From Halothiobacillus diazotrophicus (GTDB lineage Bacteria; Pseudomonadota; Gammaproteobacteria; Halothiobacillales; Halothiobacillaceae): 64,000 bases of DNA. The stretch lies in the NCBI RefSeq assembly GCF_001663815.1, contig NZ_CP016027.1, forward strand, positions 2,790,501-2,854,500. Reading direction: 5' to 3'. The number at the start of each line of letters is the position of its first letter. The stretch's first letter is position 1. Under the pieces are notes generated by a model. It saw only the letters and a program-made list of their open reading frames with translations. It had not been told where the DNA came from and did no database searches. Below, piece after piece: positions 28,615-30,406 of this stretch. The position numbers and the translations under genes were made by a program.

Positions 28615-29043
28615 CTATCCCTGACGCTCGGTGGTCCGTACGCAAAGCGGCTGCTGGTCCGGGTTTTCGACCGCCTGTGCAATGGCGGTCACGAAGGTCG
28701 TCAGTTCATCCGGTGTCAGCGCGGCCAGCAGGCGGTTCATCAGGGCCGGATCGATGCGTGCCAGGCTGCTTTCTCCTGAGCTCAAGGGCACCCAGATGCC
28801 CGCCGAACGGAATTCGTCCTCGGCGTCCTCGGCCCGGGCCGCAGCCTCGTTTTCCTCAATGTCCGCCTCGTACCACGCTTCGATCCGGTCGAGCAGCTCG
28901 TCGTCGATGTCGTCGGGGATGGCGACGATCGTGACGTCTTCGTTGATCGGATCCGGGCGACTGGTGACGACGAGACCCAAGGCTTCGATCCGGGCGATGA
29001 AGTTCACGCCCCGATCCCTGGTCAAGAAACAGAATTCATACAT
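28615..29043 (-). CDS. Acidic protein of unknown function
   Basis: A 142-residue protein that I do not recognise. It is strongly acidic in the centre (IPDDIDDELLDRIEAWYEAD, then EENEAAARAEDAEDEF) and has no signal peptide or membrane helix. The first part, YEFCFLTRDRGVNFIARIEALG, looks like a compact alpha/beta start, and the C-terminal part (IDPALMNRLLAALTPDELTT) is helical. A strong GGAGG about 10 bp before the ATG supports real translation. It converges on rsxE. Confidence 0.75.
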   Translation of the reverse strand: MYEFCFLTRDRGVNFIARIEALGLVVTSRPDPINEDVTIVAIPDDIDDELLDRIEAWYEADIEENEAAARAEDAEDEFRSAGIWVPLSSGESSLARIDPALMNRLLAALTPDELTTFVTAIAQAVENPDQQPLCVRTTERQG

Positions 29044-29193: not shown

Positions 29194-29221
29194 TTGACAG
29201 GATTTTTCTTCTGGATACAGT
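29194..29221 (+). promoter_or_regulatory. Sigma-70 promoter of the 43-aa membrane protein gene
   Basis: Perfect -35 TTGACA (29194-29199), 16-bp spacer, -10 TACAGT (29216-29221). The predicted leader of about 43 nt contains a C-run/G-run hairpin (about 29227-29252) just ahead of the ribosome binding site. Confidence 0.6.
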
Positions 29222-29270
29222 GCTTGAACCACCCCATGTTTTTTGGGGGGTTTGACGGGAGAAGTTCAGT

Positions 29271-29402
29271 ATGAGCATTGAATCTCAGATTTTAGATATC
29301 TCGATCATCGCCATGGTTGGCATTATCGCTGTTCCGACGTATGTGTTCCTGTGGTTCTGGTACAAGTCCGGCAAGGCAATGAAGGAAAAACACCTTCATT
29401 GA
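29271..29402 (+). CDS. Small single-span membrane protein (43 aa), function unknown
   Basis: A 43-residue protein too short for most gene finders. It starts MSIESQILDI, has one hydrophobic helix (residues about 9-30: ISIIAMVGIIAVPTYVFLW), an aromatic belt FWY at the interface, and a basic tail KSGKAMKEKHLH; a positive-inside topology would place the C-terminus in the cytoplasm. GGGAGAAG lies about 8 bp before the ATG. The gene has its own promoter and a strong terminator, so it is a monocistronic unit. The size and build recall small subunits of terminal oxidases, but I see no specific motif and no oxidase genes nearby. Confidence 0.75.
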   Translation: MSIESQILDISIIAMVGIIAVPTYVFLWFWYKSGKAMKEKHLH

Positions 29403-29478
29403 TCATCCCCGTGCCGCAGGGTGATGCGGCTTTTCAGGTGTCCCTGCACGGCACGCTGTTAAGTTTTATCACACGCGA

Positions 29479-29510
29479 AGCCCGGACGAACGTCCGGGCT
29501 TTTTGTTTTT
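29479..29510 (+). terminator. Strong intrinsic terminator after the 43-aa gene
   Basis: Perfect 10-bp stem AGCCCGGACG (29479-29488) / CGTCCGGGCT (29491-29500) with a 2-nt loop, or a shorter stem with a larger loop, followed by TTTTGTTTTT. Confidence 0.95.
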
Positions 29511-29539: not shown

Positions 29540-30406
29540 CTACCGCAGGGGGAGATAAAGATCGGTAATGAGTTCGTGCTCATCCACGTCGGGCACGAGA
29601 TTGAGGTAATGGAAAAAGAGCGGAAAGTCGCGTAGGGCCTCGCCGCTCTCCGGAAGCCAGTTGCGGTATAGATAGATTGCACGGGCGCCGATGCCCTGAT
29701 GACTGCCCTCATGACGGATTCGCGCGCAGCGGCCGCCTGGAATGATCCGGTTGATCACGCCGAAGCCGTTGTCGGGAATCTCGGTATTCACCGACCCGCA
29801 GATATCGAAACGGAATTCGTCCGGCGGGGTCGTCTGGGGGTTGTCGTAGGCGATACCGAACGTATGGCTGCTTCGGACGGGTGACAAGCCGCTCTGCTTG
29901 CGCCATTCGATGAAGCGCATCACGGAGTCGTTCAGCAGCTCGGGGTCGCCCCGGTGCTCCAGGGCGGCAATTCGGGTTTCCTCAAAATCGACAATTGATA
30001 CATTCATGTTCTGCGGTCTCTCCGGCGTGTTGATCTGAAATTGCGCCCACCAGGGTTTCCAGGCAGGCGATTTCTTGAACCGGGATGGGGTCTGGTCGAA
30101 CACGCGTTTGAAGGCACGGGAGAAGGACTCCGGGTTTTCGAACCCGGCATCCAGCGCAATGTCGATGATGCGCAGGTCGCCACCGAATACGAGTTGGTAC
30201 GACGCTCGCTTCAGTCTCATCAATTGGACGTAGTGGTGGACATTGACGCCCGTGTGGCTGGAAAACACCCGATGAAAATGGAATTTGGACAGATTGGCCA
30301 CTTCGCTGAGATGCGCTACGGACAAATCCGCATCCAGATTCCTGTCGATGTAGTCGAGTACCTTGGCGAATCGTTCGTTGTAGGTGCCTGCGCCTGCGTT
30401 GTTCAC
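29540..30406 (-). CDS. AraC-family regulator with GyrI-like effector domain
   Basis: A 288-residue two-domain regulator. Residues about 12-110 form the AraC double helix-turn-helix (HLSEVANLSKFHFHRVFSSHTG and IIDIALDAGFENPESFSRAFKRVF). Residues about 130-288 form a GyrI/SbmC-like ligand-binding domain (VSIVDFEETRIAALEHRGDP, then the YDNPQTTPPDEFRFDI strand). The Rob-type arrangement suggests response to small hydrophobic or cationic compounds. The start is GTG with a strong GAGGAGGGA 8 bp upstream. The target is unknown; it converges on the 43-aa gene and is followed by radA in the same direction upstream. Confidence 0.92.
   Translation of the reverse strand: MNNAGAGTYNERFAKVLDYIDRNLDADLSVAHLSEVANLSKFHFHRVFSSHTGVNVHHYVQLMRLKRASYQLVFGGDLRIIDIALDAGFENPESFSRAFKRVFDQTPSRFKKSPAWKPWWAQFQINTPERPQNMNVSIVDFEETRIAALEHRGDPELLNDSVMRFIEWRKQSGLSPVRSSHTFGIAYDNPQTTPPDEFRFDICGSVNTEIPDNGFGVINRIIPGGRCARIRHEGSHQGIGARAIYLYRNWLPESGEALRDFPLFFHYLNLVPDVDEHELITDLYLPLR

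Follow-up and report, generated by a model that had tools for sequence, protein, structure and literature searches.

Small one-helix subunits of terminal oxidases, such as CcoQ, CcoM and YnhF, are easily overlooked by annotation, and several of them were found through purified complexes alone, CcoM and YnhF with intact-mass MALDI. CcoM is a 36-aa subunit of the cytochrome cbb3 oxidase in Pseudomonas stutzeri (PMC10433244). In Campylobacter jejuni, CcoX is encoded behind ccoP and is essential for oxidase activity, and small subunits which occur beyond CcoQ or replace it were found in different bacteria (PMC8267372). The Pfam family DUF3149 (PF11346) is uncharacterised, and no mention of it could be found in the literature searched. 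Here, a gene for a 43-aa membrane protein was analyzed in a 64,000-nucleotide stretch of DNA from Halothiobacillus diazotrophicus, referred to as the window, and its product was compared with DUF3149 and with the small proteins of the cbb3 oxidase.

The 43-aa gene and its signals

The transcription unit consisted of five features, given here by position in the window.

29194..29221, forward strand: sigma-70 promoter, with the -35 box TTGACA at 29194-29199, a spacer of 16 nt and the -10 box TACAGT at 29216-29221
29226..29253, forward strand: 5' leader stem-loop, -14.6 kcal/mol, z -1.7, weakly supported
29257..29261, forward strand: Shine-Dalgarno GGGAG, 9 nt upstream of the ATG
29271..29402, forward strand: 43-aa membrane protein MSIESQILDISIIAMVGIIAVPTYVFLWFWYKSGKAMKEKHLH, ATG at 29271 and stop at 29400-29402, with one predicted transmembrane helix and a basic C-terminus
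29477..29510, forward strand: intrinsic terminator, stem at 29477-29502 followed by a T-run

The sequence-only reading had described a promoter, a leader hairpin, a Shine-Dalgarno site, a 43-codon frame and a terminator, and each could be located where it had been placed. The two promoter boxes agreed with the consensus at 10 of 12 positions. The stem of the terminator (-18.8 kcal/mol) had a z score of -5.1, and none of 200 shuffles was as good. The leader hairpin was not significant, as 13 of 200 shuffles were equally stable, and the mean z score was -1.2 across 18 leaders. The leader hairpins of Guyparkeria had almost invariant TGACC..GGTCA arms. Since the outer arms were nearly constant and the inner arms were out of register, the compensatory changes in this hairpin were discounted as covariation.

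The same reading had taken the completeness of the unit as an argument for a real gene. All parts were indeed present; however, a shuffled region is expected to contain approximately 0.6 promoter-like and 0.5 terminator-like sites, against one of each in the window, and the motifs alone are therefore weak proof of a gene. The unit rises above chance because the frame, the selection acting on it and the layout are conserved across relatives. Inspection by eye revealed that the promoter layout was kept in relatives (for example L002, L003, L006, L007, L009 and L011) as TTGAAT, TTGAAA or TTGATA, a spacer of 16–17 nt and TAnnGT, and a purine-rich site occurred at the position equivalent to GGGAG. 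Terminators were present downstream of most relatives' genes. None could be found in several of the Halothiobacillus genomes, in which the small gene abuts the convergent radA. No consistent FNR/ANR-type site was common to the small gene and ccoN.

The family motif could be written as M-x-[IV]-E...FWxxWKKSGxA with a single membrane helix, the N-terminal start being MxIExQ. Nine residues were invariant across the 17 members (M1, E4, I7, S11, I18, W30, S33, G34 and A36). AlphaFold, run with single-sequence input, predicted one helix covering residues 3-42 with a mean pLDDT of 92. The positive-inside rule would place the N-terminus in the periplasm and the basic FWxxWKKSGxA tail in the cytoplasm. 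The Guyparkeria members carried a histidine-rich C-terminal tail, e.g. HRHQHS, and many Halothiobacillus members had a C-terminal KEK followed by a short end.

Distribution, selection and genomic neighbours

The source genome is 2.91 Mb long, and its near relatives are Halothiobacillus and Guyparkeria. A homologous frame was present in 18 of the 27 searched genomes of the family, the source genome included, which belonged to Halothiobacillus, Guyparkeria and one further genus. By genus, the gene was found in 8/10 genomes of g1, 9/11 of g4, 1/1 of g2 and 0/5 of g3, and the two g1 genomes lacking it were drafts of 220–270 contigs. The single member outside the family was found in G172, which belongs to another family (E 2e-15). 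A scan of the genome contigs with an alignment-based profile returned 14 loci, all in Halothiobacillaceae except one that was labelled just Proteobacteria. Each genome carried one copy, the members were 42–51 aa long, and their identity to the window protein was mostly 44–70%; the homologue in G009 (G009:C1:1914090-1914218, minus strand) was 56% identical. The dN/dS values of the 25 closest pairs ranged from 0.05 to 0.31. The conserved frame, promoter layout and terminators together with purifying selection thus bore out the claim that the unit is self-contained and encodes a membrane protein with one helix. We hold with very high confidence that this is a real, stand-alone gene under such selection, and its product is predicted to be a single-helix protein of the inner membrane.

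In Halothiobacillus, the gene was situated between radA and a conserved gene adjoining the rnf operon. On the rnf side, at 28615-29043 on the minus strand, the window encodes a 142-aa acidic protein (MYEFCFLT...) that is conserved beside the Halothiobacillus rnf operon and matched no family above threshold. Between the small gene and radA, at 29540-30406 on the minus strand, lies a gene for an AraC-type regulator with a GyrI-like domain; it occupied that spot in the window and in G005 and was absent there in the other Halothiobacillus genomes examined. In Guyparkeria, g2 and G172, the gene was found downstream of a ROK sugar kinase, which in G172 matched fructokinase models. The kinase neighbourhood is common to two families, which suggests that it is an older location and that the Halothiobacillus gene moved away from it. 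The neighbours give no hint of function, and cco genes never adjoined the small gene in the Halothiobacillaceae neighbourhoods examined.

Relation to DUF3149 and cbb3 genes

The protein had been said to resemble no known small protein. This was correct for the window sequence taken alone, which matched no Pfam or other curated model and remained below the DUF3149 gathering cut-off of 23.2 bits. It did not stand for the family, since the L006 ortholog (58% identical and also beside radA) passed that cut-off with 24.2 bits (E 2.4e-5) and the hhalign comparison agreed. Among ten orthologs scanned, L006 was the one above the cut-off, while the rest scored 14.7–21.0 bits or gave no match; the ortholog with 70% identity scored 21.0 bits. 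DUF3149 was the commonest Pfam match among the members (8/17).

A set of 28 DUF3149 proteins was obtained by a class-wide search with the Pfam model, collected independently of the small-protein family. Alignment of the two profiles using hhalign gave a probability of 94.4% and a score of 36.6 over 34 columns, covering the helix and the KKS end. None of 1000 permutations of the DUF3149 core columns reached this score, the best being 36.1. As controls, the reversed profile gave 10%, CcoQ 38%, CcoS 16% and CcoM 5%. The N-terminal (M)DLLFGN of DUF3149 was absent from the family, and the alignment began downstream of that segment. The family is likely, but not certain, to be a lineage-specific branch with remote homology to DUF3149, a relation that would rest on approximately 34 columns of membrane helix, with most members below the cut-off. 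Two stand-alone 48-aa proteins, at L059 and L061 (e.g. ...FTIVFILGFLGYLGWKLFKLSGHKPNPGEKVW), seemed intermediate between DUF3149 and the small-protein family.

Of the 27 genomes with a match above the cut-off, 5 had the DUF3149 gene among their cbb3 genes, and most DUF3149 genes were outside cco operons. It was flanked by ccoP and ccoG in L181, L171, L173 and L179, and lay downstream of ccoG and ccoH in L160; a sub-threshold match in L183 was similarly placed. The match in L181 was borderline, with 24.4 bits in one search and 20.3 in another. NCBIfam or Pfam models confirmed ccoP (L181, L173 and L179), ccoG (L181, L171, L173 and L160), FixQ (L181) and FixH (L160), and the remaining cco genes, ccoP of L171 and ccoG of L179 among them, were identified by reading the translations. 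A protein of approximately 85–95 aa with apparently two helices was encoded next to DUF3149 among the cbb3 genes of L160 (1726-1980, minus strand) and L173 (1210-1497, minus strand). The protein of L173 had no Pfam or NCBIfam match, and a similar frame was seemingly present in L179 and L183.

Within the same sample of 274 genomes, ccoN was above the cut-off in 26 of the 27 DUF3149 genomes compared to 143 of 274 overall, and the lone DUF3149 genome without it was 55% complete. Fisher's test of the co-occurrence gave P 2e-7, which rose to 2e-5 when the ccoN threshold was relaxed; these values ignore kinship, genome size and reduced genomes lacking both genes. The presence of DUF3149 genes among cbb3 genes in some bacteria suggests that their distant relative may help to build or stabilise the cbb3 oxidase.

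The source genome (G000) carries a ccoNOQP-ccoG cluster and thus a cbb3 oxidase. A true CcoQ lies within the ccoNOQP operon and a separate true CcoS at G000:C1:611439; the 43-aa protein therefore exists in addition to both, and a displaced CcoQ or CcoS could be rejected. No DUF3149-like frame was found between ccoP and ccoG in Halothiobacillaceae, including this genome. Two ccoN genes were present in most Halothiobacillus genomes searched. The second ccoN of the source genome (G000:C1:933323-934702, within L186, G000:C1:926000-937000) had no ccoO, ccoQ or ccoP directly behind it and was followed by a gene that appeared by eye to encode a UvrD-type helicase. The five genomes of the sister genus g3, which lack the small protein, contained CcoG and CcoS, and ccoN was present in the four of them that were searched. 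One of these, G011, had ccoNOQP followed by CinA-like and rnf genes instead of ccoG (L188, G011:C61:25000-37000), and its ccoG was on a different contig.

Proposed function and known small oxidase proteins

The 43-aa protein may be an accessory or assembly subunit of the cytochrome cbb3 oxidase that is encoded outside the cco operon, a proposal for which we consider the case to be evenly balanced. The helix would bind the cbb3 complex or an assembly intermediate and would stabilise or mature the complex, with a mode of action possibly like that of CcoQ, CcoM or Campylobacter CcoX. A broader proposal, that DUF3149 and the small-protein family form an unrecognised, dispersed class of cbb3 accessory or assembly subunits in Gammaproteobacteria, encoded depending on the lineage in the cco operon or, as in the window, by a separate gene that has a promoter and terminator to itself, is advanced more tentatively and falls just short of even. 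The main counter-evidence to an oxidase role is that genus g3 has a cbb3 oxidase without the protein and that linkage to cco genes is absent within the family. These same facts, the lack of a family match for the window protein itself, its neighbours other than cco genes and the location of most DUF3149 genes would suit a small membrane protein unrelated to cbb3. Such a protein might belong to another membrane complex or regulate it, or it might act in membrane stress. The likeness to DUF3149 would then reflect convergence of hydrophobic helices or homology with a different function. Such an explanation has considerable weight and we place it somewhat below an even probability, because the profile match was register-specific, as judged from the permutations and from how poorly the other one-helix proteins of the oxidase scored, and because an ortholog passed the Pfam cut-off of a family that is linked to cbb3 genes.

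Two further explanations concern the nature of the gene product. The gene could encode the small hydrophobic toxin in a type I toxin-antitoxin pair, whose antisense RNA would target the leader hairpin, and this would agree with the short hydrophobic protein, the hairpin and the strong terminator. Such a toxin is nevertheless very improbable, as there is a single copy per genome under strong purifying selection across genera, the region contained no RNA family at or above the Rfam gathering score, antitoxins included, and a promoter scan of the antisense strand of the unit showed no promoter-like site. The hairpin and terminator could equally be expected if the product were a noncoding or regulatory RNA and the frame a coincidence, and this can be dismissed almost entirely. 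Third codon positions varied most, with a mean majority identity of 0.65 compared to 0.81 and 0.91 at the first and second positions, dN/dS was well below 1 and the hairpin was weakly supported. The sequence-only reading had named a frame not conserved in relatives, or an RNA signal alone, as outcomes against it; neither was seen, and the region gave no Rfam match.

A role in the oxidase for DUF3149 and its divergent relatives, if true, would account for many orphan small genes in Gammaproteobacteria. The proposed role is testable, and Halothiobacillus neapolitanus, which can be cultured, offers a suitable organism for this.

Among known families, DUF3149 shares with the small-protein family a length of approximately 40–45 aa, a single helix, the register LLS...GM...F..KKS, a stand-alone gene in most carriers and a cbb3 oxidase in nearly all sampled carriers. 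The small-protein family differs in lacking (M)DLLFGN, in having the extra W27/W30 and the SGxA tail, and in never being encoded in the cco operon within Halothiobacillaceae. Weak matches to Psb30/Ycf12 of photosystem II (E 0.5, judged to be chance) and to an EYxxD small membrane protein (E 0.14) were rejected.

CcoM of Pseudomonas stutzeri (PDB 5djq chain N) has one helix and a basic C-terminus, and its gene is outside the cco operon, as is that of the 43-aa protein. However, the profile comparison showed no similarity, so that homology was rejected, and CcoM was found in just 2 of 369 genomes of the class. CcoQ/FixQ (PF05545) is likewise a small one-helix cbb3 subunit, but the profiles were aligned over 15 columns only and the small-protein gene is not between ccoO and ccoP; the best FixQ match among the members, that of g2, had 22.8 bits (E 9e-5) against a gathering cut-off of 29. 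The assembly protein CcoS/FixS (PF03597) is also small with one helix, and it differs by its low score in the profile comparison and by the lack of any FixS profile match in the family. CcoX (DUF4006), which belongs to a different Pfam family, provides the precedent of an extra small protein that is needed for the oxidase.
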